A DNA stretch of 63,568 nt, taken from IMG/VR virus record IMGVR_UViG_3300036832_001810, positions 1-63,568 of that record. One strand, given 5' to 3'. The translations under genes and the position numbers were made by a program. The DNA is from a virus. The notes below the pieces were generated by a model. It made no database searches. It was not told where the DNA came from and was given only the letters and a program-made list of their open reading frames with translations. Positions within the stretch are counted from its first letter, which is position 1; each line of letters opens with the position of its first letter. Positions 3,244-63,309 of the stretch are shown here, one piece after another.

Positions 3244-3513
3244 TCAATCCTCCTCCTCGGGGATGCGCCACATGAAAACGGGTGTACCCTCGCCCACCCA
3301 GGCGCCCTCGGTGTTGAATTCGAAATATTCGCGGGCGGTGTCCTCGTCCATGCCCTGCGCCATCAGAATCTCAATGCACTTCTCGGCGTCGTAGACCACG
3401 TAGTCGCCGCGCCCCGGTGTGTAGGCGTGGCCGATGATCGCGTCGTCGAAGCCGTCGGCGACGAGTACCTCGCCCTCGAAGTGCTCGTCGAGCCAGTCTC
3501 TGGCTTTACTCAT
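3244..3513 (-). CDS. Conserved small phage protein
   Basis: An 89-residue acidic protein. The arrangement (EGEVLVADGFDDAIIGH, then VVYDAEKCIEIL, then AREYFEFNTEGAWVGEGTP) is a pattern I recognise from small proteins widespread in unrelated phages, whose function is unknown to me. It sits between two overlapping genes of the early operon, and its length fits the family. Confidence 0.7.
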   Translation of the reverse strand: MSKARDWLDEHFEGEVLVADGFDDAIIGHAYTPGRGDYVVYDAEKCIEILMAQGMDEDTAREYFEFNTEGAWVGEGTPVFMWRIPEEED

Positions 3514-4614: not shown

Positions 4615-7125
4615 TCAGTCCTCGTCGTCTTTGTACTGTTGGGGTGGGGAGATGCGCAGGTCGTTGGGCGTGATCCCGTAGACCCGTGGGGGTTTGCCGG
4701 CGTGGTGATTGCGCGGCCTTTCGATACGGAACAGGTGGGGTCGGAGGCTCAGGCGCTTCGACATCCAATTGGGCGGCATGGGCCGCTGCTCCTGTTTCTT
4801 GCACCAGGCCCCGTAAGCCGTCATCAGCTCGGGGAGAGCGCAACTGAAAGCCTGGAATGGGCCAAGCGTGCAGCAGTCGTGAAAGAAATCGTCGAGGCCG
4901 TCGGCGGCGATATCTTCTTGGCGCAGCGTTTGTACGTTGCGCTCTACGTCGAGCGGTCGCATCAATCCCTCCTTTTCGCGGCGCAGCGCGCCCTCGATGA
5001 ACCAGGTCGTAATCTGGTCGCCTTCAGCGGCGCACAGCTCCTCGGCCAGGCGCTTGTTCATGCGCTCGGTGGAGATTTGCACCGCAAAGTGGATGGGGTG
5101 CAGGCGCCGCAGGAAGGCGTCGTCCTCGGTGTCGATGCGCGGTACTTCGTTGGTTTCGAGAAAGATCTTGGCGGTGGGCGTGAAGGTGATCGAGTCGCGG
5201 AATTTCAGATTGGCCGAGACCGTGCCCACGCCCTGGGTGAGGATCTTGAGTAGGGCCTCGTCGAACTTCTGGCCGGCCGGCGGCTCGCTCGAAATTACCA
5301 GGCGCGCGCCGCGCGTGGTGGCCAGCTCCATGCGCCGGTTGCTGTCGCCGACCGTGCGGGCGTTGGTCAATACGTTGGCGCTGATGCGCTGGGCGCAGGT
5401 GCCGAGGATGGTTTCGAGGATGGCGAGCACGGTGGATTTGCCGTTGTTGCCGGTCTTGCCGTAGAGGCAGAAGAAGACTTTCTCCGACACGTCGCCGGTC
5501 ATGGCATAGCCAAAGACCTTCTGCAGGTAGTCGATCATGCGCTCAGCCTTTTCGATGGCCTCTTGCCCGGCGTCGGGGCCGCCGCCCATCAGCTCGTCGA
5601 GCGTTTCCAGAAAGCGCCGGGGCGGGCCGAGCGCGGGGTCGTAGCGGTGCGGGACGATGCGCGTGAAGTAGTCTTCGCGCTTGGACGGGCGCAGTTGTCC
5701 GGTGTTGAGGTCGAACGTGCCGTTCAACAGCGGGATCAGGCGCGGATGGTTGTCGAGCGCCTCGACCGGGATCGCCGCCATGCGCCGCGCGGCTTTGATC
5801 ATATTCTCCAGGCCGGCCATGTTGCGGGTCTTGTGCCCGTGTTTCCAGAGGCCCTCGTCGTTTTTGGCGGTCGCCTGGTTCTGGGTCAGTTGCATGGCGT
5901 CGCGCGCGTAGCGGTAGACCGTGCAGTCGTCGGTGTCGGGCACCCAGTACGCGTCGTTCCAGGCGAGCCAGCCGAGCGCGGCGCAATAGCGCAGGTTCCC
6001 CTTGGCGAACGCGAGCAGGCGCTGGCCGTTGCCGGTGTCGTTGCGCTCGAAGCGCGTCAGGTCGGACTCGTCGGTGTCGCTCGTGGCGGGCGGCGCCGCT
6101 GGCGGCCGGCCGTTGATCTCTCTCCCGTTGACGGGCGCTTTGCTGCGCGCGGTGGCGTCATGCGGATCGCCGAGCGGGCTGTCTTTGGCGATGGCCAGGA
6201 ACTCCTCGAAGCTGTGACCCAGCTCATCCCAGTCCCAGAGGTCGCCTGACTCGGGCAGGCCGGGGAGCGTGACCACGCGCGCGGGCACGCCGGCCGCCAC
6301 CAGGGCGCCCGCGTTCTTCTTCCCGCAGCCCGCGCCCACGGCGTCGTTGTCGCAAGCCACGTAGACCACTTCCGCGCCCTGGAAGCGCTCTGCGTATTGG
6401 TTATTCCAGCTCTTCTCGCCGTTCGGCAGGCAGGTGACCGCCACCGGCCAGCCGCTTTGTTTGACGCGGTCGCGCGCCTTCTCGCCGTTGGCCAGGATGA
6501 TCACGCCGTGCGCCTGGGCGGCGGCGACAACCTCGGGCTCGTGGTAGAGCGCGGTCAGCTTGTCCTTGCTGAGGTGGCGCGCCCAGCCTTTATTGGGGCC
6601 GGGTTCAAACCAGAGCATCTGTTTGTCGCCTGGTTTGTCGAGGTTATCGAAGCGCACCTTGATACGCTCGCCATAGACGTAGAGCGCGCGCGGCTGCCAG
6701 TTGCCGCCGCCGGTCTTCTTGGCCAGCCAGGCGTGGCCCTCTTCGATGTTTTTGGCGAGCAGGCGCAGCCGCCAGGCTTCGTTCGTGATTTCGGTGGGCG
6801 GCTTAAAGGGCAGCTTCCAGGGCGAATCGACGGCGCGGCCGATCACGTCGTAGATGTACTGCCAGGCCTCCTCGCCCTGCAGGTTGTAGCGCTGTTCCAC
6901 CCACTGGTACATGCCCCAGCCCTTGCCGCCGCAGCGGGTGTGGCAGCAGGCTACACCCTCGCGGTTGTTGATCGAAAGCGCGCGCGGGTTTTTGCCGTCG
7001 TGCATCACGCAGCGCGATTCCATCTGGTCGCCGCCGATAGCGCGCGCGTCGGGGCACTCGTGCTTGAAGAAGCGCTCGCTTTCGGCGATGGTCGGCTGGA
7101 AATTGCCCGGCGAGAAGGCGCTCAT
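4615..7125 (-). CDS. DNA primase-helicase (TOPRIM + SF3)
   Basis: An 836-residue replication protein of the phage/plasmid D5-P4 type. Residues 39-65 carry a CHC2-like zinc finger (C39, H42, C60/61, C65). Residues 205-300 are a TOPRIM domain with E215 in NGEK and the D-x-D pair D259/D261 in ACDNDAVG. Residues 380-520 resemble the D5 N-terminal helicase region. Residues 550-680 are the superfamily 3 helicase, with Walker A YGKTGNNGKST at 555-565, LVISSEP at 609-615, sensor LETNEVP at 656-662 and arginine-finger candidates R673/R674. It should prime and unwind DNA at the phage origin. No DNA polymerase gene is visible in the window, so the host enzyme is the likely partner. Confidence 0.93.
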   Translation of the reverse strand: MSAFSPGNFQPTIAESERFFKHECPDARAIGGDQMESRCVMHDGKNPRALSINNREGVACCHTRCGGKGWGMYQWVEQRYNLQGEEAWQYIYDVIGRAVDSPWKLPFKPPTEITNEAWRLRLLAKNIEEGHAWLAKKTGGGNWQPRALYVYGERIKVRFDNLDKPGDKQMLWFEPGPNKGWARHLSKDKLTALYHEPEVVAAAQAHGVIILANGEKARDRVKQSGWPVAVTCLPNGEKSWNNQYAERFQGAEVVYVACDNDAVGAGCGKKNAGALVAAGVPARVVTLPGLPESGDLWDWDELGHSFEEFLAIAKDSPLGDPHDATARSKAPVNGREINGRPPAAPPATSDTDESDLTRFERNDTGNGQRLLAFAKGNLRYCAALGWLAWNDAYWVPDTDDCTVYRYARDAMQLTQNQATAKNDEGLWKHGHKTRNMAGLENMIKAARRMAAIPVEALDNHPRLIPLLNGTFDLNTGQLRPSKREDYFTRIVPHRYDPALGPPRRFLETLDELMGGGPDAGQEAIEKAERMIDYLQKVFGYAMTGDVSEKVFFCLYGKTGNNGKSTVLAILETILGTCAQRISANVLTNARTVGDSNRRMELATTRGARLVISSEPPAGQKFDEALLKILTQGVGTVSANLKFRDSITFTPTAKIFLETNEVPRIDTEDDAFLRRLHPIHFAVQISTERMNKRLAEELCAAEGDQITTWFIEGALRREKEGLMRPLDVERNVQTLRQEDIAADGLDDFFHDCCTLGPFQAFSCALPELMTAYGAWCKKQEQRPMPPNWMSKRLSLRPHLFRIERPRNHHAGKPPRVYGITPNDLRISPPQQYKDDED

Positions 7126-9864: not shown

Positions 9865-10251
9865 AACTCGCTTGCAGTCCGCGTCCGGCTTGCTTTCGCG
9901 ACCGCCGTACCGGGCCGATGATCATCGCATTTACAGCTACCAGAGAAGTTTCGATTTTCTGCCCGCTCGGGAAGGAAGTCAATAGTCAAGTTACAGGTCC
10001 GGCATATATAGCACAAACCCTTTATTTTCAATCCGTTGAATAACTCTTGCATTACTCATTTTTCGCTCATTTTGAGTAATTCGAGTAATATCAACTTTTT
10101 GAGTAATACTCTCAATTCTTGCAATTCGCTCACTCTTTGCAATTCTTGCAAATCTCGCATAACTAGTAATTCGAGCATTTACCAAACGGGGTAACTTGCG
10201 CGCGGCGGGTTTGTATAATCGGACTACCGAATCGAGCCGGAGAAAGGTGCC
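9865..10251. promoter_or_regulatory. Main divergent control region, possible operator array/origin
   Basis: No gene is seen in these 387 bp, which separate the left early operon from the plus-strand structural operon. From 10040 to 10180 the DNA is AT-rich and repetitive. GAGTAA occurs at 10074, 10083 and 10101, TTACTC at 10052, and an 11-bp palindrome GAGTAATACTC at 10101-10111. On the minus strand GAATTGCAAAGAG lies at 10133-10145 and GAATTGCAAG at 10118-10127. The same words recur at other control regions. A minus-strand -10-like TATATA lies near 10008. The iteration fits a repressor/activator array or initiator binding sites. Confidence 0.6.
10214..10219 (+). promoter_or_regulatory. Probable -10 box (TATAAT) of structural operon
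   Basis: A perfect TATAAT on the plus strand lies 33 nt before the first structural-operon ATG at 10252. No good -35 hexamer is found 16-18 bp upstream, so the promoter may depend on an activator binding the repeats just upstream. A ribosome binding site GGAGAAAGG follows at 10239-10247. Confidence 0.5.
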
Positions 10252-35722: not shown

Positions 35723-36823
35723 ATGACGAAAAAAGAAAAGTATCTGTATCGACGCGGCGAGATGTGGTGGGTGAAGATCCCAAGAGGGCCAGGGCTGCGG
35801 CCCTTGTTTGAGTCCACCGGCATCCGGGCGGATGAGAAGAACCCGGACAAGGTGCCCGAAGCGGCGAAGGAATTTCGCGACAGCAAGCTGGTGCAGAAGC
35901 ATCGCAACGAAATGCGAACGACCGGCAATCAGACGGCGACTTGCGGCGAGCTGCTCGATGACCTCATCGCCAGATGGGAAGCGAACGGCAAAGAGTCCTC
36001 GTGCTACTCGCTGAAGAAAGTGGTTGAAGCGCACCTGCGCCCCTCGTTCGGCTCCATTCGCGTGGCACGTCTGACGACTGCGATGCTGGAGGCGTACCGG
36101 ACGAAGCGAGGGAAGATGGGACGCAGCGGCGGGACCATCAACCGCGAGCTGGCCTACTTCCGTATCGCGCTCAAGGACGGCCAGAAAACCACGCCGCCGA
36201 AGGTCCTGGCAATCCCGCACTTCCCGATGGTCAGCGAGGTGGACAACGTCCGCACGGGGTTTCTGAAGCGCGAGGACTACGAGACGCTGTTGTTTGAGCT
36301 GCCAGCCGAAGTGCAGCCCGCGCTAGTGATCGGCTATCACGTTGGCATGCGCTTCACCGAAATCACCAAGCTGACCTGGAAGCACATTCGGCCAGACCGC
36401 AAATTCATCCAGCTTGGCAACCCGGATGTAAAGAACCGTCAGGGCAGACTGATCCCAATCTATGGCGACATGAAGATTGTGATTGAGGAGCTGTGGCGGC
36501 AACACCAAGAGCAATACCGGGACTGCCCCTGGGTCCTGCATCGCAACGGCGTTCGCATCGCGAGCTTCAAGGGCGCCTGGGAGCAGGCGACGATCCGCGC
36601 GGAAGTCGCCAGCCTTCTCTTCCATGACCTGCGCCGCAGCGCCGCGCGCAACATGCAGCAAGCCGGCATCCCGCGCTCCACCATCATGAAGATCATGGGC
36701 CACAAAACGGAATCGATGTTTATCCGCTATCAGATCGTGGACGAGGAAGACATCGCCGCCGCAGGCGAGAAGATGGAAGCGGCAACGCCGACTGTGGTGT
36801 CCATCAACAGCAAGCGAGCCTGA
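35723..36823 (+). CDS. int: Tyrosine-family site-specific integrase
   Basis: A 366-residue tyrosine recombinase. Catalytic residues are R210 (GMRFTEI), likely K237, H301 and R304 (FHDLRRSAARN), H327 (GHKTES) and nucleophile Y336 (FIRYQ). Residues 70-160 are the SAM-like core-binding domain, and the N-terminus is a basic arm-binding region (KYLYRRGEMWWVKIPRG). It catalyses integration and excision between attP and attB. The gene ends 21 bp before an intrinsic terminator and is followed by a tRNA-Leu and arm-type repeats. Confidence 0.95.
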   Translation: MTKKEKYLYRRGEMWWVKIPRGPGLRPLFESTGIRADEKNPDKVPEAAKEFRDSKLVQKHRNEMRTTGNQTATCGELLDDLIARWEANGKESSCYSLKKVVEAHLRPSFGSIRVARLTTAMLEAYRTKRGKMGRSGGTINRELAYFRIALKDGQKTTPPKVLAIPHFPMVSEVDNVRTGFLKREDYETLLFELPAEVQPALVIGYHVGMRFTEITKLTWKHIRPDRKFIQLGNPDVKNRQGRLIPIYGDMKIVIEELWRQHQEQYRDCPWVLHRNGVRIASFKGAWEQATIRAEVASLLFHDLRRSAARNMQQAGIPRSTIMKIMGHKTESMFIRYQIVDEEDIAAAGEKMEAATPTVVSINSKRA

Positions 36824-36881: not shown

Positions 36882-36968
36882 TGGTGCGGGCGAGAGGGCT
36901 TGAACCTCCACGGCCTTTCGGCCACCAGATCCTAAGTCTGGCGCGTCTGCCAATTTCGCCACGCCCGC
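36882..36968 (-). tRNA. tRNA-Leu (anticodon UAG)
   Basis: An 87-nt cloverleaf on the minus strand. The acceptor stem GCGGGCG (36968-36962) pairs with CGCCCGC (36892-36886), followed by A73 and an encoded CCA at 36884-36882. The anticodon loop is CUUAGGA with UAG at 36934-36932, in a CCAGA/UCUGG stem. A long variable arm GGCC-GAAA-GGCC is typical of Leu. T-loop is UUCAAGC. It reads codon CUA. The complete gene with CCA next to the integrase could be a phage tRNA that also carries the attachment core. Confidence 0.93.
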
Positions 36969-56008: not shown

Positions 56009-56037
56009 AATTTAACAAATCCGCTTGTTGTTGTCAA
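56009..56037 (-). promoter_or_regulatory. Promoter P1 (sigma70-like)
   Basis: Minus strand: -35 TTGACA at 56037-56032, 17-bp spacer, -10 TAAATT at 56014-56009, predicted start near 56002, 24 nt before the ATG at 55978. The -35 contains the stop codon of the preceding gene. The spacer ACAACAAGCGGATTTG is nearly the same as in P2 and P3. Confidence 0.75.
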
Positions 56038-56387
56038 GGACGGTCGCCTTTCTGTTCCTTCACCCACTCCATCAGCGACTCGGCGTCGCAGGTGTCGATG
56101 ATGTCGTCCAGGCCGTCCAGATCGCCCTTGCCGATATACAACTCAATCACGCGCAGAGCGTTATCCAGCGTGCAGCGCGCGGTGATGGCCTTGTCGATCA
56201 GCCCTTGCAGGCCCAGCAGGTCGCCGCCTTCCAGGCAGAGTTGGCACTCGTACCGCTGCCTTTTCTCTGAGAAAGCGATCACCGTGGTGACATGCGGCGG
56301 GTCCTGGTGCGGCTTGTCGTGCTCCGCGCCGCAGCACTGGCAGTAGGTCCCGGCAATCAGCCTGGTTTTCGGTTTGGTTCTGGTCAT
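56034..56387 (-). CDS. Cys-rich hypothetical protein
   Basis: A 117-residue protein. CQCCGAEHD near residues 16-24 and CQLCLEGGD near 48-56 form a treble-clef-like zinc site. The C-terminal half is acidic and helical (IELYIGKGDLDGLDDIIDTC). Hammerhead copy 1 lies directly upstream; cleavage would leave a 25-nt leader with AAGGAA. Unknown function. Confidence 0.6.
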   Translation of the reverse strand: MTRTKPKTRLIAGTYCQCCGAEHDKPHQDPPHVTTVIAFSEKRQRYECQLCLEGGDLLGLQGLIDKAITARCTLDNALRVIELYIGKGDLDGLDDIIDTCDAESLMEWVKEQKGDRP

Positions 56388-56409
56388 GGGGTACTGGGAT
56401 TCCTTGGGT

Positions 56410-56458
56410 CCCGACGCCTCACGGCGTTTCGCTAGACTTTCACTAGCTCGTCAGGGGG
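56410..56458 (-). ncRNA. Hammerhead self-cleaving ribozyme, copy 1
   Basis: Read on the minus strand: stem I 5' strand CCC, core CUGACGA (56454-56448), stem II GCUAG/CUAGC with loop UGAAAGU, GAA, then stem III ACGCC/GGCGU with GNRA loop GUGA, C17 at 56413, and GGG closing stem I. Predicted cut is between 56413 and 56412. The stem II pairs differ from those of copy 3 at two positions on each side with pairing kept. The following leader GGGA...UCCC can fold back around AAGGAA. Confidence 0.9.
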
Positions 56459-56464
56459 TTAGGG

Positions 56465-57049
56465 TTATTCCTCCTCCTCGCTGGCAATCTGGAGAGTTGA
56501 GTGCAGGACGCTGCACTCGTTGCAGAACAGGGAAAGCGCCCCATGGACCGCGCAGTAAAAGGCGCGCAGACCGGCCTCCGGGTGGCATTCGCTCATCATC
56601 TCCACGGGATGAGGATCGTCGGGATGGTCCGGGCATTGCAGCTCCTCGTCGAGCACCTCGCGCACTACGGGCAGGGCGGTCTCCAGCGGGTTGGCGCACA
56701 AGGGGCAGTTGGCATCGTTGAGTTTGCCCTGGGCGTCGATCCTGGCCTCGACCTTCATCTCATCCGCCGAGAATGCGCTGACGATCTCGATCACCGTAAC
56801 CGGATTGATCTGGTAACTGCGGGCGACCTCGACAATGCCCTGGGCGATCTGCGGGCTATTCGCAATCGCCTGCGCGATTGCCTCGCGGTCGGTCGCGTCG
56901 CGCCCGGCCTCGCTCAACTCGCGTGAGATCCGCTTCACATTGGCGGCCATCTTCAACGCTATCGCGCGTGCGATGGCCGCAATTCTTTCTTCCGGCTCGC
57001 CGTACTTCTCCGCGAGCGCTTTGACTTTGGCTTCATCTAACACAGTCAT
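56465..57049 (-). CDS. Hypothetical protein with zinc-finger C-terminus
   Basis: A 194-residue protein. Residues 1-100 are helical (VKALAEKYGEPEERIAAIAR; AIANSPQIAQGIVEVARSY). Residues 115-185 contain CPLC, CPDH, CHPEAG, FYCAVHG and FCNEC, a row of metal ligands for two zinc fingers. Hammerhead copy 2 precedes it and copy 1 follows it, so this gene would become a free monocistronic RNA after cleavage at both sites. Confidence 0.6.
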   Translation of the reverse strand: MTVLDEAKVKALAEKYGEPEERIAAIARAIALKMAANVKRISRELSEAGRDATDREAIAQAIANSPQIAQGIVEVARSYQINPVTVIEIVSAFSADEMKVEARIDAQGKLNDANCPLCANPLETALPVVREVLDEELQCPDHPDDPHPVEMMSECHPEAGLRAFYCAVHGALSLFCNECSVLHSTLQIASEEEE

Positions 57050-57072
57050 GGGGTACTGGGATTCCTTTCTCT

Positions 57073-57132
57073 CCCGACGCCGTCGCTTCCCAGCGGGGCG
57101 TTTCGCCGGACTCTCACCGGCTCGTCAGGGGG
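57073..57132 (-). ncRNA. Hammerhead self-cleaving ribozyme, copy 2
   Basis: Core CUGACGA (57128-57122), stem II GCCGG/CCGGC with loop UGAGAGU, GAAA, and a long stem III: ACGCC/GGCGU, small internal loop, CGCU/AGCG, tetraloop GGGA. C17 is at 57076 and GGG closes stem I; the cut leaves a 26-nt leader with AAAGGAA. It is unusual in that the upstream gene reads through the core and stops inside loop II (TGA), so translation covers the ribozyme's 5' half. Confidence 0.88.
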
Positions 57133-57344
57133 ATATGGCCTTTCTCCTTGGCGCGACGCTCGATCAGATGCTCGATGCCGTCGGCCAACTGCGCCACGCG
57201 GTTGGCCTCGCGCACGATCTCGGCTGGATCGACCGCGCCGGGGCGCGCGTCCTGGTAGGCGAAGTCGGTCCAGATCTTCAGGCGGCCCACGGCCTCGTCC
57301 AGGCGCCGCACCTGGGAGCGGATCAGCTTCTCGGTGGTGGTCAT
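57114..57344 (-). CDS. Small helical protein
   Basis: A 76-residue protein from the ATG at 57342-57344 (ATGA overlap), all helical (EKLIRSQVRRLDEAVGRLKI; AEIVREANRVAQLADGIEHL). Its last codons, for PLTSR, are the core of hammerhead copy 2. Not recognised. Confidence 0.6.
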   Translation of the reverse strand: MTTTEKLIRSQVRRLDEAVGRLKIWTDFAYQDARPGAVDPAEIVREANRVAQLADGIEHLIERRAKEKGHIPLTSR

Positions 57345-57589
57345 GAGGCAACTCCCTTGCGTTTCTCGAAGTCCGGGGCGGTAGAGTTCTCCGGCGGGCA
57401 ACCCTCGTTCCACTCCTGCTCGACTTCGCCCATGCCCAGGTTGTAGACGATGGCCCCGCTGGCCAGGAGCGCATAGAACGTGCGCTCCACGCTCCACAGG
57501 GCAGTGAGCGCGTTCTTCAGGCTCCGGCCCTCGTAAATGGGGTACTGCGGATGACGGTCGTCCGTCACCCGCACGTAGTATTTCTTCAT
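57341..57589 (-). CDS. Small hypothetical protein
   Basis: An 82-residue protein from the ATG at 57587-57589. A beta start (MKKYYVRVTDDRHPQYPIYE) and a helix LKNALTALWSVERTFYALLA. ATGA overlaps at both ends. No family recognised. Confidence 0.55.
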   Translation of the reverse strand: MKKYYVRVTDDRHPQYPIYEGRSLKNALTALWSVERTFYALLASGAIVYNLGMGEVEQEWNEGCPPENSTAPDFEKRKGVAS

Positions 57590-57981
57590 GCGGCCTCCTT
57601 GCGGCGTTTCAGGTTGGGGTTCTTGAGCGCGATCTCGGTGCCGAACTCGCAGCCGATGCCCCGGCGATACCACTCGGGCTTGGTCACGTCCTTAGCGGCT
57701 TTCTTGTTCTGCTGGCGCAGCCACGCGGGCGGCTTGGTGGCGAACGTCATCACGCCCAGGTAGCCCTCGCTCTCGAAGTAGCCCTGGACGAAAGCCCAGC
57801 CGATGCCGTTCATGGTGATGTAGATGCGGTCGCCTACCTTGGGCAACGGGAAGTCGCCGCTCCACTTGAGCAGATTGCCGTCGTCCTCGCGGTAGGTGGG
57901 GAAGACCGCGTCGTCGAGCTTGCGCGGCTTACTCATCTCGCCGGTCGCTACCGGCTCGGGAATAAAGAAGCGCTCCTTCAT
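57586..57981 (-). CDS. Conserved small phage protein
   Basis: A 131-residue protein. The order FPLPKVGDRIYITMNGIGWA, then VQGYFESEGYLGVMTFATKP, then PEWYRRGIGCEFGTEIAL is a beta-barrel-like pattern known to me from small phage hypothetical proteins. C-terminus basic. Unknown function. Confidence 0.6.
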   Translation of the reverse strand: MKERFFIPEPVATGEMSKPRKLDDAVFPTYREDDGNLLKWSGDFPLPKVGDRIYITMNGIGWAFVQGYFESEGYLGVMTFATKPPAWLRQQNKKAAKDVTKPEWYRRGIGCEFGTEIALKNPNLKRRKEAA

Positions 57982-58157
57982 GCGTGGACGACCTCCCAGG
58001 CACTGAAGCCCGTCACAAAGCGGCTGGTCACTTCGAGCACGTAGGCGGCCTGGCCATCGGCGGCCGTCTGCCGCGCGAAGGTGATGGCCTCGGCTTCGGT
58101 GTCGAAGGCCGAACGCTTCACGTTCTGGTCAACGACGACGTAGGTAATGGTTGTCAT
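57978..58157 (-). CDS. Small FDTEAEA-motif protein
   Basis: A 59-residue protein from the ATG at 58155-58157, immediately after the leader of hammerhead copy 3; a longer frame to 58370 crosses the ribozyme and the next gene. TITYVVVDQNVKRSAFDTEA, then ITFARQTAADGQAAYVLEV. It shares the FDTEAEA-x-x-FA motif with the gene at 58228. Coupled to the next gene by ATGA. Confidence 0.65.
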   Translation of the reverse strand: MTTITYVVVDQNVKRSAFDTEAEAITFARQTAADGQAAYVLEVTSRFVTGFSAWEVVHA

Positions 58158-58178
58158 GGGGTTGGGATTCCTTTGGGT

Positions 58179-58227
58179 CCCGACGCCTCGCGGCGTTTCG
58201 CCCGACTTGCACGGGCTCGTCAGGGGG
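58179..58227 (-). ncRNA. Hammerhead self-cleaving ribozyme, copy 3
   Basis: The clearest compact copy. Directly after the TAA stop of the upstream gene come CCCC, core CUGACGA (58223-58217), stem II GCCCG/CGGGC with loop UGCAAGU, GAA, stem III ACGCC/GGCGU with tetraloop GCGA, C17 at 58182, and GGG of stem I. The predicted cut at 58182/58181 leaves a 24-nt leader with AAAGGAA ending AACCCC before the ATG. Confidence 0.92.
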
Positions 58228-58515
58228 TTATCGGTCCCGGTGCTGTTCCTCCCCGTCGCGGGTCGCGCAATCGTTCCAGGGCCGACCGCACTCGCAGATC
58301 TCGGGATTCTCGGGCTCGACCTCAATGACCTCGGCGGTGTAGCAGCCCTCGCCGCCACGGTCCTCCACATCCTCAGAGGTCAGCCCAAGGTCTTCCAGAT
58401 TGCGCTCCTCGGCCCAGTGATCCGCGAAGGCCTGCGCCTCGGCCTCGGTATCGAATGCCTGTGGGAAAGTGCCGCAAGCCTCGCTTCCGTTGTCCCAGTT
58501 CACGTAGTACGGCAT
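58228..58515 (-). CDS. Small acidic FDTEAEA-motif protein
   Basis: A 95-residue acidic protein. AFDTEAEAQAFADHWAEERN, then CECGRPWNDCATRDGEE with three Cys. The FDTEAEA helix start is shared with the 59-residue protein at 57978, its neighbour across hammerhead copy 3. TGATG overlap with the gene upstream. Confidence 0.6.
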   Translation of the reverse strand: MPYYVNWDNGSEACGTFPQAFDTEAEAQAFADHWAEERNLEDLGLTSEDVEDRGGEGCYTAEVIEVEPENPEICECGRPWNDCATRDGEEQHRDR

Positions 58516-58826
58516 CAGAGTAATCCCTTCCGGCCTTCCGGCGAATTCGCATAGGCGTCGTCGCCCGACTCCAGGCGCTGCGCCTCGGTGTCGAGGTTCT
58601 TCAGCATCTGGCTCATGGCCTCGCGCAGCCGCTCGATGGCCTCCACCGTAGTGGCGCTATTGGCGGCGATGGTCAGGGGCGCGAACCAGCGCTGTACCTC
58701 GCGCATCAGCTCGGCGCGGTCACTGCGCCCGTCGAACATGCGTAGCGCGGCGCCCTGGATGCCGGCCTCGCGCAGCATCGTCTTGAACATGTGCTCGTAG
58801 TTGGGGGTGATGGTGATGTGTTCCAT
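58515..58826 (-). CDS. Small helical protein
   Basis: A 103-residue helical protein (EHMFKTMLREAGIQGAALRM; VEAIERLREAMSQMLKNLDT). No metal ligands or membrane segments. It lies between two genes without a ribozyme at either junction, so it would stay linked to its neighbours after cleavage. Not recognised. Confidence 0.6.
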   Translation of the reverse strand: MEHITITPNYEHMFKTMLREAGIQGAALRMFDGRSDRAELMREVQRWFAPLTIAANSATTVEAIERLREAMSQMLKNLDTEAQRLESGDDAYANSPEGRKGLL

Positions 58827-58828
58827 GG

Positions 58829-59059
58829 CTAGTTCACCGCCTTCTTCTGGCCCAGGCCCTTGCGGATGATCTCTTTGGGCGCGGCGTGGCGCGGGTAGTT
58901 GAGGCTGCCCATGCCGTCCACCGTGGTCATGTTGTGCGCGATGTAGGCCAGATACTCCTTGGGGCGGTAGCTCAGCTTCAGGGCCTCGGCCAGCGTGTCG
59001 CCCTTGGCCCAGCAGCCGTTCGAGCCAATGACCAGGATCTTCAGGTCTGTGATCTTCAT
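58829..59059 (-). CDS. Small hypothetical protein
   Basis: A 76-residue protein (KILVIGSNGCWAKGDTLAEA, then NYPRHAAPKEIIRKGLGQKK). The strand-then-GSNGCWAKG opening resembles small phage proteins of unknown role. It starts directly after the leader of hammerhead copy 4 with ribosome site AAGGAG. Confidence 0.6.
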   Translation of the reverse strand: MKITDLKILVIGSNGCWAKGDTLAEALKLSYRPKEYLAYIAHNMTTVDGMGSLNYPRHAAPKEIIRKGLGQKKAVN

Positions 59060-59083
59060 GGGGTGTTACTCCTTGGGATGATT

Positions 59084-59142
59084 CCCGACGCGCCGTCTCT
59101 CGACGGGGCGTTTCGCCCGACTCTCACGGGCTCGTCAGGGGG
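59084..59142 (-). ncRNA. Hammerhead self-cleaving ribozyme, copy 4
   Basis: Starts at the TAA of the upstream gene. Core CUGACGA (59138-59132), stem II GCCCG/CGGGC with loop UGAGAGU, GAA, then a 10-bp stem III with a single C-C mismatch and loop GAGA, C17 at 59087 and GGG. The cut leaves a 27-nt leader in which GGGA pairs UCCC around AUCA, with AAGGAG outside the hairpin. Same leader subtype as copy 7. Confidence 0.9.
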
Positions 59143-59382
59143 TTAGTCGCCCAGGTACACGGGCTGGTAGTTTTCGAGCGAGTCCACCCAGACGTGCTTG
59201 ACGCCTTCCTCGGCAGCCATGGCGTAGGCTGCGCTCGACGGCGTCCAGTGGACCGTGCCGTCGGTCGAGTAGTAGTCGCCCCAACCAAAGCCGGAGTAAT
59301 AGAACAGGCCGGGGAAGGGGTTGAGCGTGCGCGCCGGGGTGCGCAGCGTGTCGGTGGCGGAATAGATTTTGTTTTGCGCCAT
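59143..59382 (-). CDS. Small aromatic-rich protein
   Basis: A 79-residue protein rich in Tyr, Trp and Gly (FPGLFYYSGFGWGDYYSTDG). No membrane segment. Followed by hammerhead copy 4, so its mRNA would end in the ribozyme's 5' product. Not recognised. Confidence 0.55.
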   Translation of the reverse strand: MAQNKIYSATDTLRTPARTLNPFPGLFYYSGFGWGDYYSTDGTVHWTPSSAAYAMAAEEGVKHVWVDSLENYQPVYLGD

Positions 59383-59383
59383 C

Positions 59384-59584
59384 CTAGTCGCCCTCCTCTA
59401 ATTGGTGATGGCCCTCGATCACGCCGATCACCTCGTAGGCGACGCCTTCCTTGTAGCGCGGCGGTTTCGCGCTCTGCTCGTCGATGGCTTTCAGCTTGGC
59501 GTCGTAGGCCGTGGGCGCTTCCAGGCGGTTCACGTAGGCGAAGTGATCGTCCAGGTACAGACTGATTACGGTGTAGGGTTTCAC
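59384..59584 (-). CDS. Small hypothetical protein
   Basis: A 66-residue protein (YTVISLYLDDHFAYVNRLEA, then KAIDEQSAKPPRYKEGVAYE). Alternating strands and one helix. ATGA overlap with the gene upstream. No family recognised. Confidence 0.55.
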   Translation of the reverse strand: MKPYTVISLYLDDHFAYVNRLEAPTAYDAKLKAIDEQSAKPPRYKEGVAYEVIGVIEGHHQLEEGD

Positions 59585-59874
59585 TTACCTGCCTCCTCTC
59601 CCAGCACGCGGCCCGTGACCCGCACGGCGTAGGGGTCGATAGCGCGAATCATGGTGCAGGCATGAAGCGATTCGGACGGCACGCCCAAGGCGCGCACCTT
59701 CTCTCCGTCCAGCTTGAGATGGTCGGAGCCCGTGCGGACGGCGTAGCCGCACTCGGTCAGGTGGCCGTAGGCGGTGGCAAAAGCCTCCTCGCGTGTGGCC
59801 GCTTCAATCACGAGGACACGCGGATAGGTGTGGGCGTAAGGCGTGTCCTGGTACGTCACTTTCCATTTCGTCAT
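59581..59874 (-). CDS. Small hypothetical protein
   Basis: A 97-residue protein from the ATG at 59872-59874. KWKVTYQDTPYAHTYPRVLV, then EAATREEAFATAYGHLTECG; the A-T-R-E-E-A-F-A segment recalls the FDTEAEA proteins nearby. Only CCCC separates it from the upstream TAA, the same flank that elsewhere holds a ribozyme. Its ribosome site lies in the upstream gene. Confidence 0.6.
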   Translation of the reverse strand: MTKWKVTYQDTPYAHTYPRVLVIEAATREEAFATAYGHLTECGYAVRTGSDHLKLDGEKVRALGVPSESLHACTMIRAIDPYAVRVTGRVLGEEAGK

Positions 59875-59878
59875 GGGG

Positions 59879-60043
59879 TTACTCTTTCTCCTGTTCTTTG
59901 GCGCAGGCCTCGCAGCCAATGCGCTTGTCGATGTAAAGCTGCTGGGTCTTGACTTCATCCGCCGTGCGCGTCAGCTTGTGGCCGCAGTCGAGCAGAATGC
60001 GGTACTCGCGCCCGAAGCGGGTCATGCGAACGATTGTGCTCAT
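59879..60043 (-). CDS. Small Cys-pair protein
   Basis: A 54-residue protein (MSTIVRMTRFGREYRILLDC, then GHKLTRTADE and GCEACAKEQEKE). CGH and CEAC could bind one zinc. ATG at 60041-60043 lies only about 3-4 nt after the predicted start of promoter P2, so the mRNA may be leaderless. The stop TAA is followed by CCCC and the next ATG. Confidence 0.65.
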   Translation of the reverse strand: MSTIVRMTRFGREYRILLDCGHKLTRTADEVKTQQLYIDKRIGCEACAKEQEKE

Positions 60044-60052
60044 CGAAATTCC

Positions 60053-60081
60053 ATTCTAGCAAATGCGCTTTTTGTTGTCAA
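60053..60081 (-). promoter_or_regulatory. Promoter P2 (sigma70-like)
   Basis: Minus strand: -35 TTGACA at 60081-60076, 17-bp spacer, -10 TAGAAT at 60058-60053. The spacer (ACAAAAAGCGCATTTG) closely matches P1 and P3. Predicted start near 60046, almost at the ATG of the next gene (60043). Confidence 0.78.
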
Positions 60082-60112
60082 GCAGGAGGGGTGAAATCCC
60101 CTCCGCTCGCGC

Positions 60113-60412
60113 TTAGTAGCGCGCCGCCAGTCGCGGCACAAAGTGGCCTTCGAGCTTGCCCGTGTCGCGGTTGAGGTGGCGGCGGATACCAAACACGTCG
60201 TGCGCGAGGTTGCTGTCATCCGTCGCCAGCAACCGTTCCAGGTCCAGGGCGCAGCCGTTGGCATGGCACGCGGTCAGGTCCATCAGGATGGTTGATTGCG
60301 GGTAGTCAACGTGCAGCCGCCGCGCCAGCGCCGCCGCGCGTGCGGTAATCTCGCCGATCAGCGCGTAGTCGCTCGCGCTCACGGTCCAGTTGATCTGAGA
60401 CTTGTCTGTCAT
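60113..60412 (-). CDS. Conserved small protein (HDVFGI type)
   Basis: A 99-residue protein from the ATG at 60410-60412, right after hammerhead copy 5; a longer frame to 60487 would cross the ribozyme. ILMDLTACHANGCALDLERL, then DDSNLAHDVFGIRRHLNRDT match a small family of phage and bacterial proteins with conserved AHDV(F/L)GI. Role unknown to me. Ends before promoter P2. Confidence 0.7.
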   Translation of the reverse strand: MTDKSQINWTVSASDYALIGEITARAAALARRLHVDYPQSTILMDLTACHANGCALDLERLLATDDSNLAHDVFGIRRHLNRDTGKLEGHFVPRLAARY

Positions 60413-60433
60413 TGGGTTGGGATTCCTTTCAGT

Positions 60434-60494
60434 CCCGACGCCAACGCCTCCCGGCGTGAGCGTTTCGGCCGACTTGCACGGCCTCATCAGGGGG
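60434..60494 (-). ncRNA. Hammerhead self-cleaving ribozyme, copy 5
   Basis: Core CUGAUGA (60490-60484, with the U7 of classical hammerheads), stem II GGCCG/CGGCC with loop UGCAAGU, GAA, stem III ACGC/GCGU then an internal loop then CGCC/GGCG with tetraloop GGGA, C17 at 60437, GGG. Stem II differs from copy 3 by a compensated base pair. Cut leaves a 24-nt leader with AAAGGAA and a GGGA/UCCC hairpin. Confidence 0.9.
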
Positions 60495-60496
60495 TT

Positions 60497-60862
60497 CTAC
60501 TTGCCGGTGATCGCGGCGCAGGCGTCCTTCACGGCGCTGCCCAAGGCGCGGGTCGAAGACGACGTAATCATGTCGCCTTCTTTGTTGAAGACGGCCATCT
60601 TGTTGTCGCGGCGCAGATAGCCCTTGCCGCCCTCGTGATCGAGCGTGACGACGTAATCCGCGCGGTCGCGGTTGTTGGTCACAATCACGGCGGGGCAGCT
60701 TGCGCCGAATGTCTTGTAGATCTCGGCGGTCTGCGGTCGCGCTCCACCGGCGCGGCCTACCATCTGCCAGGACGTAGAGTCGGTGATGAAGACGCGTGGC
60801 TTATCCTGGGCGGAAAGGCCGGCGACGGCAATCAATGCGGTAAGCGTCAGTTGCTTTGTCAT
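60497..60862 (-). CDS. Secreted-type protein, Acidobacteriota-like
   Basis: A 121-residue protein. Residues 1-18 (MTKQLTLTALIAVAGLSAQ) are a signal peptide. The rest (RVFITDSTSWQMVGRAGGAR, then PQTAEIYKTFGASCP, ADYVVTLDHEGGKG, then STRALGSAVKDACAAI) resembles a family I associate with secreted Acidobacteriota proteins of unknown function. Length is short for that family. Presence in a phage operon suggests capture from the host. Preceded by hammerhead copy 6 and followed by copy 5. Confidence 0.7.
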   Translation of the reverse strand: MTKQLTLTALIAVAGLSAQDKPRVFITDSTSWQMVGRAGGARPQTAEIYKTFGASCPAVIVTNNRDRADYVVTLDHEGGKGYLRRDNKMAVFNKEGDMITSSSTRALGSAVKDACAAITGK

Positions 60863-60884
60863 GGGGTTGTTGGGATTCCTTGGT

Positions 60885-60933
60885 CCCGACGCCTCGCGGC
60901 GTTTCGCCCAACTTTCATGGGCTCGTCAGGGGG
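60885..60933 (-). ncRNA. Hammerhead self-cleaving ribozyme, copy 6
   Basis: Directly after a TAA. Core CUGACGA (60929-60923), stem II GCCCA/UGGGC with loop UGAAAGU (A-U in place of the G-C of copy 3), GAA, stem III ACGCC/GGCGU with loop GCGA, C17 at 60888, GGG. Cut leaves a 25-nt leader with AAGGAA and GGGA/UCCC. Confidence 0.92.
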
Positions 60934-61050
60934 TTACCAGCTCCAGGCCCACTTCACCAGCAGGGTTGCGCCGACAATTACGGCGGCTAAGAACGCGAGA
61001 TAGCCTACGGTGACAATGAGGCATCCGCAGCCGTCGTCGGACTGACTCAT
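60934..61050 (-). CDS. Small membrane protein
   Basis: A 38-residue protein from the ATG at 61048-61050, overlapping the stop of the gene upstream by ATGA. SQSDDGCGCLIVTVGYLAFL then AAVIVGATLLVKWAW is a single membrane segment after a Cys-containing soluble start. Not recognised. Hammerhead copy 6 begins right after its TAA. Confidence 0.6.
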   Translation of the reverse strand: MSQSDDGCGCLIVTVGYLAFLAAVIVGATLLVKWAWSW

Positions 61051-61763
61051 GCCGCGTCCTTGCCTTTCTCCTCGCGCTCCTGTTCCAGGTTGCGGAGGAA
61101 GCCCTTGACGCCGCGCTCGGAACTGTCGATCAGGTCGTAGGCCAGGATCAGGTCGCGGCACACCTCGAAGGCGCGGTCGAGGATGTAGCTGTCGTCGCCC
61201 AACTCCCACTTGAGCAGGCCGGACGTGCGGGCGTGGCAAGTATTGTCCCGATCCTCGACGTACTTGCGAACGGTGTGCATCAGGGCGAACGACTCCATGC
61301 CCCGGTAGTGATCCTTGGCGAGCACGCGGAAAGCGCCGTCGATAGAGCCGTCGTGATAGCTCGTAATCTCCTCGTAGCGCTTGTCGTGGCGCTTCTCGGG
61401 GTTGCTGGTCACCTTGCGCTCACTGCGCGAGTACCAGCGGGTCTTGCCCTCCTTGAATTTCACGCTGAAGGCGAAGTCCAGGTCGGCCTTCGACGGGATG
61501 CCGCCCGTGATGGCGTAGCGTGCGTCATTGCGCAGGTCCTGGTCGGTCAGCATGGCCTGGGCAAGCGAGAACAGGTAATCAGCCATGCGCTGAATGGAGA
61601 TCGGCATGGCGGGAGAATGCGCGGTCATGCCGTCGCCGTAGGTGTCGTAGACGCGCATGTGCTCGTTGACGGCGCAGAAACCGACGCCGTGGAAATTGTT
61701 GTCGTAGGTGTAAGCCACCTTGTCCGGCGAAGCGATGCTCGCGAAACGGTGCGTTCGACTCAT
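61047..61763 (-). CDS. Hypothetical protein
   Basis: A 238-residue protein of mixed fold (AYTYDNNFHGVGFCAVNEHM, RYEEITSYHDGSIDGAFRVL, KYVEDRDNTCHARTSGLLKW). No catalytic pattern that I can name. It begins right after the leader of hammerhead copy 7, with ribosome site CUGGAG, and ends in ATGA overlap with a small membrane-protein gene; those two would share one cleaved RNA. Confidence 0.55.
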   Translation of the reverse strand: MSRTHRFASIASPDKVAYTYDNNFHGVGFCAVNEHMRVYDTYGDGMTAHSPAMPISIQRMADYLFSLAQAMLTDQDLRNDARYAITGGIPSKADLDFAFSVKFKEGKTRWYSRSERKVTSNPEKRHDKRYEEITSYHDGSIDGAFRVLAKDHYRGMESFALMHTVRKYVEDRDNTCHARTSGLLKWELGDDSYILDRAFEVCRDLILAYDLIDSSERGVKGFLRNLEQEREEKGKDAA

Positions 61764-61788
61764 GGGGTGTTACTCCAGTGGGAAATAT

Positions 61789-61847
61789 CCCGACGCGCCA
61801 TCTCTCGACGGTGCGTTTCGCCCGACTTGCACGGGCTCATCAGGGGG
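61789..61847 (-). ncRNA. Hammerhead self-cleaving ribozyme, copy 7
   Basis: After a TAA. Core CUGAUGA (61843-61837), stem II GCCCG/CGGGC with loop UGCAAGU, GAA, long stem III (10 positions, one A-C mismatch and one G-U) capped by GAGA, C17 at 61792, GGG. Relative to copy 4 one stem III pair is G-U in place of G-C, so pairing is kept. Cut leaves a 28-nt leader: GGGA pairs UCCC around UAUU, then GGAG outside the hairpin. Confidence 0.9.
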
Positions 61848-62081
61848 TTAGGCGCTCGGCACGATCTCGAATTGCTGGCCAGCGGAATTCTCCAGCCGCC
61901 CGTTGGGCATCTTCGAGAGCGTGAATCTCGCCCGGAAGCGGGAGTCCGGCGCGCAGTTGTCCAGGTGGATCGCGGCGTCGCTTTCGGCGGTCACGTAGTA
62001 GCGCAGGCCCTGGCCGGTGTTGGGCACCGGCGCGTTGGGCGTCACGGTGCGGATGCGGATGATTTTGGTCGGCGTCTTCAT
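61848..62081 (-). CDS. Small hypothetical protein
   Basis: A 77-residue beta-rich protein (KIIRIRTVTPNAPVPNTGQG, then LRYYVTAESDAAIHLDNCAP). No family recognised. GGAGA precedes the ATG. Upstream lies a plain GNRA-capped hairpin, not a ribozyme; downstream lies hammerhead copy 7. Confidence 0.55.
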   Translation of the reverse strand: MKTPTKIIRIRTVTPNAPVPNTGQGLRYYVTAESDAAIHLDNCAPDSRFRARFTLSKMPNGRLENSAGQQFEIVPSA

Positions 62082-62100
62082 GGTTTCTCCGTTGGGTTGT

Positions 62101-62118
62101 GGGGGCCTTGCGGCCCCC
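62101..62118 (-). other. Intergenic GNRA-capped hairpin
   Basis: Between the DUF932-like gene and the next gene, the minus strand has GGGGGCC GCAA GGCCCCC, a 7-bp perfect stem with a GCAA loop and no U-tract. The upstream TAA is followed by CCCC, as before the ribozymes, but no CUGANGA/GAAA core is present. It may be an RNA stabiliser or a different boundary element. Confidence 0.6.
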
Positions 62119-62126
62119 GGTTGGGG

Positions 62127-62963
62127 TTAGCTCAGGAGCTTGCGCATCTCCTCGGCCAGGGTCCAGAGGGCCTTGTTGAGCTTGGTGTTCTCGCTGATGC
62201 CTTCGACCGGGCGGGTGCGCAGTCTACGCCGCGTCTCCGCGTTGCGGCCCCGGATGCCGCCATTGAGCAGCGCTTCCTGGGTGCGGTTGAAGGTGTTCCA
62301 GAGCGTGGGCGTATTGTCCTCGACGCGGCGCGGCGTCAGGACCTGTTGGGGCGTGATGGGCGCCTCGCCCTCGTCGTAGCGAAGCTGGAGCGCGGCGGTG
62401 GCGAAGACCTCGGCCTGGGGCGCTTCGAGGCGCAGCGCCTGGAAGCTCTGCACGCTGTCGATCACCTTGGGCATCTGGTCGATCACCTCGAACGAAGCCT
62501 CGATCACGCCATCCGCGTCGCCCCGGTGCGGGACGCTGATGTGGTTGACCACGCCGTCGCCGACCACCATGCCGTTGGTGCAGACGAGGCGAAACAGGCC
62601 GCTATCGAGCTTGTAGCTACTCATGCCGTCGTGCGAGTTGGTCAGGACCAGCTCGGGGTAGACCACGCCCAACTGGCGGGTCAGAGGCTGATCGCCCTGG
62701 CGCATGTCGCGGAAGCGGATCAGGTGTTTGGTGAAGTCGCCCTTCCCGGCGATCCGGGTGCGGGACTGCATGGCTTGGACGGGCTGGAAGCCTTCCTCGC
62801 GCATGCGCTCGACCACGGCGATGGTGGGGATGAACGCGTACTTCTCGCTCATCTTGTGCCATGGCTCCATGGCGAACACGCTCGGGGCATAAGCCCGGAG
62901 CTGATCGTTGGTCAGCGCCGTCATGGAACGGACACTGTGACGCATTTGGGTAGCGATGTTCAT
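62127..62963 (-). CDS. DUF932/DUF945-type phage protein
   Basis: A 278-residue protein of the DUF932 group common in phages and plasmids. FIPTIAVVERMREEGFQPVQ, then RTRIAGKGDFTKHLIRFRD, then PELVLTNSHDGMSSYKLDSG, LFRLVCTNGMVVGD and a helical end with TLWNTFNRTQEALLNGG give the classical order. Biochemical role unknown; often near replication or modification genes. First gene after promoter P3; leader of about 54 nt contains a GAGAGAGAGA ribosome site. Confidence 0.88.
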   Translation of the reverse strand: MNIATQMRHSVRSMTALTNDQLRAYAPSVFAMEPWHKMSEKYAFIPTIAVVERMREEGFQPVQAMQSRTRIAGKGDFTKHLIRFRDMRQGDQPLTRQLGVVYPELVLTNSHDGMSSYKLDSGLFRLVCTNGMVVGDGVVNHISVPHRGDADGVIEASFEVIDQMPKVIDSVQSFQALRLEAPQAEVFATAALQLRYDEGEAPITPQQVLTPRRVEDNTPTLWNTFNRTQEALLNGGIRGRNAETRRRLRTRPVEGISENTKLNKALWTLAEEMRKLLS

Positions 62964-63023
62964 GGGATGTTTTTCTCTCTCTCTCTCGTTTCGTTTGGCG
63001 GCGTTTCTTGCGCCGTTGAACCT

Positions 63024-63052
63024 AGACTAGCAAATCCGGTTTTTGTTGTCAA
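63024..63052 (-). promoter_or_regulatory. Promoter P3 (sigma70-like)
   Basis: Minus strand: -35 TTGACA at 63052-63047, 17-bp spacer, -10 TAGTCT at 63029-63024, predicted start near 63017. Spacer ACAAAAACCGGATTTG matches those of P1 and P2. It would drive the DUF932 gene and the ribozyme-punctuated genes behind it. Confidence 0.78.
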
Positions 63053-63082
63053 TAGGACTTGGGGTGAAACGGTTCTTTTTCT

Positions 63083-63150
63083 CCCAAATTGCGGCGCAAT
63101 TCGCGCAATCGCCGCAATTTTCGCCCAACTTTCATGGGCTCGTCAGGGGG
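63083..63150 (-). ncRNA. Hammerhead self-cleaving ribozyme, copy 8 (divergent)
   Basis: After a TAA. Core CUGACGA (63146-63140), stem II GCCCA/UGGGC with loop UGAAAGU, GAA, then a perfect 10-bp stem III (AAUUGCGGCG/CGCCGCAAUU) with a 13-nt loop. Position 17 is U (63086), giving an UUU triplet, followed by GGG. Core and stem I are intact but the triplet is weaker than GUC. It lies between a small gene and promoter P3 rather than directly before a start codon. Confidence 0.78.
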
Positions 63151-63309
63151 TTAGCGGCTCGACATGGCGACAATGTAGCCCACGAAGCCAGCGAACGCGC
63201 TGTACGCAGCGCAGTCGAATGCCCAATAGTCGCGCGGCAGGAAAACCGCAACTATCAGGGAGGTGATCCATAGCCATATGCAAGCGGAGGCGATAGAGTC
63301 GCGGATCAT
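63151..63309 (-). CDS. Small two-helix membrane protein
   Basis: A 52-residue protein from the ATG at 63307-63309 (ATGA overlap). Two hydrophobic segments (SACIWLWITSLIVAVFL and YSAFAGFVGYIVAM) around RDYWAFDC. Unknown role. The TAA is directly followed by hammerhead copy 8. Confidence 0.6.
   Translation of the reverse strand: MIRDSIASACIWLWITSLIVAVFLPRDYWAFDCAAYSAFAGFVGYIVAMSSR

Follow-up and report, generated by a model that had tools for sequence, protein, structure and literature searches.

The window considered here is the whole 63,568-nucleotide (nt) stretch of IMG/VR virus record IMGVR_UViG_3300036832_001810, a phage contig that carries, on its minus strand between positions 63149 and 56410 (6.7 kb), eight copies of one RNA motif along a single gene block. 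The pattern CCCTGAYGAGNNNNTGNRAGTNNNNCGAAA matches the window exactly eight times, always on the minus strand, and was never matched in 100 shuffled versions. A scan for the whole fold on both strands of the window, which required CUGANGA, stem II, GAA, an A-U-closed stem III, H17 and stem I, recovered the identical eight elements and no others. Numbered along the minus strand, these are hammerhead 1 (63083-63149, predicted cut 63086/63085), hammerhead 2 (61789-61846, 61792/61791), hammerhead 3 (60885-60932, 60888/60887), hammerhead 4 (60434-60493, 60437/60436), hammerhead 5 (59084-59141, 59087/59086), hammerhead 6 (58179-58226, 58182/58181), hammerhead 7 (57073-57131, 57076/57075) and hammerhead 8 (56410-56457, 56413/56412). 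The predicted cuts are spaced 451-1350 nt apart.

In every copy the core (CUGAYGA ... GAA ... H17) is intact at all positions, stem II has 5 base pairs (bp) closed by a 7-nt loop of the form UGNRAGU, and stem III has 4-10 bp with an A15.1-U16.1 closing pair. The base at H17 is C in seven copies and U in the promoter-proximal one (cut 63085). With loops closing stems II and III and with stem I left open, the copies have the type I topology. Stem I consists of CCC paired with GGG, only 3 bp, followed by a C.A mismatch, compared with 5 bp in most phage hammerheads. The complete core and the type I topology had both been claimed by an earlier, sequence-only reading of this DNA, and both are borne out by the motif search and the fold scan, the topology also by the covariance model and covariation described below; the GGG:CCC pairing of stem I that it reported is likewise present in all eight copies, but its shortness and the mismatch that follows had been overlooked. 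The eight elements are type I hammerhead ribozymes by these sequence features, and self-cleavage is predicted for them.

At the Rfam 15 gathering thresholds, a search of the whole window returned one tRNA only and no hammerhead. The best match in the window at a lax cut-off was to RF00008 (26.8 bits, E 0.022), the gathering scores being 34 bits for RF00163 (Hammerhead_1) and 48.5 bits for RF00008 (Hammerhead_3). An Rfam search was the check that the sequence-only reading had proposed, and the lack of a match above threshold is formally the outcome that it had named as refuting the claim, but other phage arrays are equally missed: at gathering, RF00163 and RF00008 identified no hammerheads in eight hammerhead-bearing loci (L120, L070, L083, L152, L013, L001, L092 and L137), and the array at L120 reached a top Rfam score of 35 against a threshold of 48.5. 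The Rfam test therefore lacks sensitivity, and the gathering threshold was dropped as the sole test because of its insensitivity in these eight other loci. Standard Rfam thresholds miss phage ribozymes of this kind, and phage hammerheads are probably under-annotated under them. We used in addition a covariance model, R1, trained on 12 hammerheads, none of which came from the window phage or from its nearest relative, IMG/VR contig 3300036846_001134 (G001). R1 recovered all eight copies at E values from 4e-16 to 9e-9 (8.6e-9 for hammerhead 1, and 5.6e-16, 1.4e-15, 3.7e-13, 3.3e-15, 2e-15, 6.8e-16 and 4.2e-16 for hammerheads 2 to 8, respectively), the next match in the window having an E value of 0.51. 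It misaligned stem III of the weakest copy (63108-63154), in which the direct scan finds a perfect 10-bp stem III.

The fold is further supported by covariation. Across the 16 elements of the window and G001, eight pairs showed double-sided changes compared with 3.1 on shuffling (none of 500 shuffles was as high), and stem II was 100% paired with four of its five pairs compensated; this alignment had been fitted to the model structure and is biased towards it. In a less biased test, based on a pattern that left the stem II bases free and so did not demand pairing, stem II was fully paired in 128 of 136 distinct matches compared with 25 after partner shuffling, and 27 stem II types were represented (among the matches listed). 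Stem I lends no covariation support, since its three pairs hardly vary. At the fourth stem I pair, the window copies have C.A, and position 6 of their loop II is G. When counted by lineage, A.C at this pair was found in 5 of 11 cases with loop II G6 and in 5 of 66 without it (Fisher p 0.004, small sample). Judged from sequence, this association suggests that a tertiary contact between stem I and stem II may have been kept.

The elements are placed at gene joints. For seven of the eight copies, an ATG follows the predicted cut at a distance of 24-28 nt: 28 nt for hammerhead 2 (open reading frame (ORF) 61047-61763), 25 nt for hammerhead 3 (ORF 60497-60862), 24 nt for hammerhead 4 (a DUF6874 gene, 60113-60412), 27 nt for hammerhead 5 (ORF 58829-59059), 24 nt for hammerhead 6 (ORF 57978-58157), 26 nt for hammerhead 7 (ORF 56465-57049) and 25 nt for hammerhead 8 (ORF 56034-56387). 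The sequence-only reading had put these seven between a stop codon and the next ATG; the distances to the ATG agree with this, but hammerhead 7 overlaps the upstream ORF. Its 5′ half is coding, since the ORF that starts at 57342 reads CTG ACG AGC CGG TGA into the ribozyme and stops at the TGA (57116-57114) inside the stem II loop. Hammerhead 1 follows a stop codon at 63153-63151 and lies about 30 nt upstream of the promoter-like TTGACA at 63052, in agreement with the reading of one copy as preceding a promoter; the first gene past it (62127-62963, minus strand) encodes a DUF932 protein (PF06067). 

The sequence-only reading had also assigned all copies to one operon. There are three promoter-like sites on the minus strand: TTGACA-17-TAGTCT just downstream of hammerhead 1 (63024-63052, recognized by pattern only), TTGACA-17-TAGAAT within the array (60053-60081) and TTGACA-17-TAAATT downstream of it (56009-56037). 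With these sites in or beside the array, the eight copies may not all lie on one transcript. Hammerhead 1 (63146 in the window) and the copy at 12476 in locus L013 of G001 are both directly upstream of a TTGACA promoter and not of a gene; trimming of read-through transcripts is a possible function of hammerheads in this position. Elsewhere the phage has genes for a portal, a head protein, an integrase and a primase. The integrase gene (35723-36823, plus strand) adjoins a tRNA-Leu gene (36882-36968, minus strand), which probably marks a temperate phage, with a possible attachment site there.

A comparable array is found in G001, whose DUF932 protein is 90% identical to that of the window phage and which has eight R1 matches, all on one strand. 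Two extra ribozymes lie upstream of its hammerhead-1 counterpart, and the window contig ends at 63568, its ends being without overlap, so that the array may extend past the record. When the window is compared with G001, both flanking genes are conserved at the hammerhead 1 site only, and at the remaining sites homology extends to one neighbour, the second gene having been replaced, or the counterpart gene is present without a ribozyme. The ribozymes persist at gene joints while the genes are shuffled. Such turnover would also be expected if the repeats were recombination linkers, kept as short homology at gene-cassette borders for gene swaps, with self-cleavage being incidental, and the 20-30 nt of near-identical DNA that the copies have in common would suit that purpose. 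Stems II and III nevertheless vary by compensated changes, unlike identical homology arms, and a linker would need neither the invariant core bases nor the single-strand orientation seen within each array record; we regard a linker function as unlikely.

One nucleotide bulges from the 3′ strand of stem II in the G001 copies at 10225, 11416 and 12476. Three hammerhead-like elements, at 5963-6023 and 6890-6949 in L013 and at 3365-3427 in locus L028, read CUGAYGA-U-GGC, in which a U is inserted between A9 and stem II; in one of them the A15.1-U16.1 pair is swapped to U-A, and these elements are a possible core variant. Among 40 other DUF932 loci, R1 matches were found in just two, L028 clearly and L032 marginally, which indicates that the array is not tied to the DUF932 gene. 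A near-identical phage was sought in GenBank and none was found. An R1 scan of eight cultured phages chosen as nearest by portal or short DNA matches (BcepIL02, Simon, DSL-LC04, Caulobacter RW, Pag-Yong1, 023Pt_psg01, vB_MseS-P1 and PPF1) detected no hammerheads, so these phages provided no cultured stand-in.

Hammerheads of this kind were also located in other phages by a free-loop pattern scan of IMG/VR, which returned at least 120 stretches, most of them confirmed as hammerheads by the fold scan; the counts that follow apply among the matches listed. Scans of whole records revealed same-strand arrays of eight copies in G002 (92.7 kb), seven in G003, seven in G004 and G005 (the same elements) and four in G006, and in each array record every copy is on one strand. 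No proteins common to the array loci and the window, or to the array loci among themselves, could be detected, G004 and G005 being counted as one. In a set of 110 deduplicated hammerheads with sufficient flank, 95 lie at an upstream stop codon compared with 21% of controls, and in 65 the stop codon, ribozyme, ribosome site and start codon are all present, compared with 8% of controls. Phage hammerheads of this kind thus normally sit at gene joints.

Two further observations were made in these records. At L102, L117, L124, L125, L145, L163 and L167, the hammerheads have stem III inserts of 39-55 nt that appear similar between contigs, often followed by a GAAAACC-like sequence, and may form a separate ribozyme subtype with a stem III domain. 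In L003 (6960-7380, minus strand), a hammerhead with a 3-bp stem I lies upstream of a structured stretch containing GGGTTCGAATCCC, which resembles a tRNA T arm; neither ARAGORN nor Rfam named this stretch, and it is perhaps an intron-interrupted tRNA or an unusual RNA.

The sequence-only reading had overlooked a second structure that competes with the ribozyme. Immediately after the cut, GGGA-N(4-10)-UCCC occurs in seven of the eight copies compared with 1.1 expected (0 of 500 shuffles). The minus-strand hairpins have the form GGGA-UAUU-UCCC from the cut after hammerhead 2 (61780-61791), GGGA-N8-UCCC after hammerhead 3 (60872-60887), GGGA-N10-UCCC after hammerhead 4 (60419-60436), GGGA-AUCA-UCCC after hammerhead 5 (59075-59086), GGGA-N10-UCCC after hammerheads 6 (58164-58181) and 7 (57058-57075) and GGGA-N9-UCCC after hammerhead 8 (56396-56412). 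The pairing is constant, but the loops differ in length and in their relation to the ribosome site, which is in the loop in five hairpins and outside it in two (those after hammerheads 2 and 5). In energy terms, the product hairpin is better than stem I by 2.5-5 kcal/mol in five copies of the seven, equal to it in one and worse in one. The leader hairpins are not unusually stable in thermodynamic terms (z near 0). Product hairpins of another sequence follow four of the five copies of L152/L083, a different phage. As a general feature of phage hammerheads the hairpin was also rejected, since it occurs 17 times compared with 13 expected in 89 others and is absent in G002; its presence in the window and in L152/L083, but not in G002 or most single copies, makes it a feature of lineages rather than a rule.

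Stem I and the hairpin both use the GGG and are mutually exclusive, and together with the preference for the hairpin in five of seven copies this would be compatible with a conditional switch, in which stem I and GGGA..UCCC are alternative folds, cleavage is set by transcription speed, upstream translation or a factor, and the ribosome site would be hidden or exposed in mRNA left uncut. The stop codon of the upstream ORF is located a few nucleotides before the core or within the ribozyme, close enough that ribosomes finishing the upstream ORF would cover stem I, which also fits such control. However, the 3′ arm of the hairpin is complete only 12-18 nt past the cut, so that cleavage may precede any competition; sequestration of the ribosome site is not conserved, given that the site is in the loop in five copies and outside in two; and no ligand-like domain was seen. 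We therefore think a switch rather unlikely.

What can be observed directly, namely the fold, its covariation, the placement at stop/start joints and the recurrence of this layout in the relative and in unrelated phages, leads us to favor a reading in which the eight hammerheads quite probably cut the nascent operon mRNA at the gene joints of this tailed, integrase-bearing phage. Division of the mRNA into units, as the sequence-only reading had predicted, is a plausible role given the position of the copies at gene joints. Several points weigh against this reading. The Rfam scores of the eight copies are below the gathering threshold, stem I is merely 3 bp plus a C.A mismatch, and when the pre-cleavage RNA is folded without constraints, the minimum-energy structure lacks a complete hammerhead in all eight cases. 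Among the ribozymes of G001, stem II is interrupted by a 1-nt bulge in three, and a U is inserted after A9 in two. The overall stability of the product hairpins is no better than that of shuffles, their position alone being non-random, and in the G002 array and most single copies the hairpin is at or near chance; the competing hairpin could also prevent cleavage.

Some of these same points, the very short stem I, the bulged and inserted variants in G001 and the low Rfam scores, would be accounted for if the elements were relics or simple hairpins, most of which no longer cleave at cellular Mg2+ and serve at most as 3′ stabilizing stem-loops or spacers. Against such decay, all core positions are intact in all eight copies and the stems covary, 7-8 intact copies per genome are present in several unrelated phages, and the stem I mismatch accompanies a matching loop II change across lineages (Fisher p 0.004). 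We consider that the elements are improbable as relics.

In the favored reading of co-transcriptional cleavage at gene joints, the ribozyme would fold as it leaves the polymerase, with CCC/GGG as stem I together with stems II and III, and would cut 24-28 nt ahead of the next ATG, at a time when the UCCC arm cannot yet compete. The upstream message would retain its stop codon and end in two hairpins (stems II and III) and a 2′,3′-cyclic phosphate, and the downstream message would begin with a 5′-OH. In the window lineage only, the freed GGG of stem I would re-pair with the UCCC located 8-14 nt downstream to form a 5′-terminal hairpin, which would hinder re-ligation, make the cut hard to reverse and shield the 5′-OH end. 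Overall, units of 0.45-1.35 kb within one transcript would become independent of each other in decay and translation. A 5′-terminal stem-loop is known to stabilize mRNA in E. coli, according to the work cited in PMC3997798 (its references 93-95).

Stem I and the GGGA..UCCC hairpin have the 3′ strand of stem I in common, and we tentatively propose that the two could form a ratchet, in which each co-transcriptional cut would refold into a hairpin-capped, ribosome-site-bearing mRNA that resists re-ligation; this is possible, though the odds are somewhat against it. If true, the ratchet would be a repeated solution for ribozyme-punctuated operons, given the hairpins of L152/L083 (four of five), and the product hairpin would offer a simple rule for designing irreversible processing by ribozymes in bacteria. 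The opposite outcome, in which the ribozyme or a host ligase re-joins cut ends to yield shuffled or circular mRNAs, is chemically allowed and was weighed by Perreault et al. (PMC3088659), who sought such products and found none. No RNA ligase (PF09414) or RtcB was detected in the ten phage records tested, and the product hairpin would impede re-ligation; RNA recombination of this type appears very improbable.

Endonucleolytic processing of operon mRNA is familiar from the RNase III or RNase E sites in T7 and T4 operons. There too, a polycistronic phage mRNA is cut between genes and hairpins are left at the ends, but the window RNA would cut itself and generate a 5′-OH and a 2′,3′-cyclic phosphate in place of a 5′-phosphate and a 3′-OH. 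Compared with the Rfam families Hammerhead_1 (RF00163) and Hammerhead_3 (RF00008), the window copies have the same core, cleavage-site logic and clan, but a much shorter stem I and scores below gathering.

The nearest precedent is the work of Perreault et al. 2011 (PMC3088659), which describes prophage hammerhead clusters that flank single genes or short blocks and proposes that long transcripts are processed to operon- or gene-length mRNAs; three clusters cleave in vitro, and a triple from A. tumefaciens cleaves in E. coli. A 2017 review (PMC6155905) restates both the clusters and the proposed processing and calls the role open. These clusters contradict the assertion of the sequence-only reading that hammerheads are known from phages only as isolated copies. 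Later reports of serial phage hammerhead arrays were not found in the open-access literature, which is not proof of their absence.

As in the window, the 2011 clusters comprise several same-strand hammerheads flanking phage genes, and the proposed role is the same. They include types I, II and III, whereas the window has eight copies, all of type I, on one strand and in one gene block, with a 3-bp stem I and C.A mismatch, a UGNRAGU loop II and a product hairpin in seven of eight. Relative to that description, the eight-copy length is new, although we make no claim to the longest published array; also new, among the matches listed, are the 7-8-copy arrays in unrelated phages and the stop-codon placement in 95 of 110, as is the product hairpin competing with stem I in seven of eight copies. 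The arrangement is thus known, though not explained, and the array is an exceptionally long and regular instance of it. Its layout of stop codon, ribozyme, ribosome site and start codon is repeated up to eightfold, with similar arrays in several phage lineages in which no shared proteins were detected, and this regularity makes the idea of mRNA punctuation by ribozymes directly testable in one construct.

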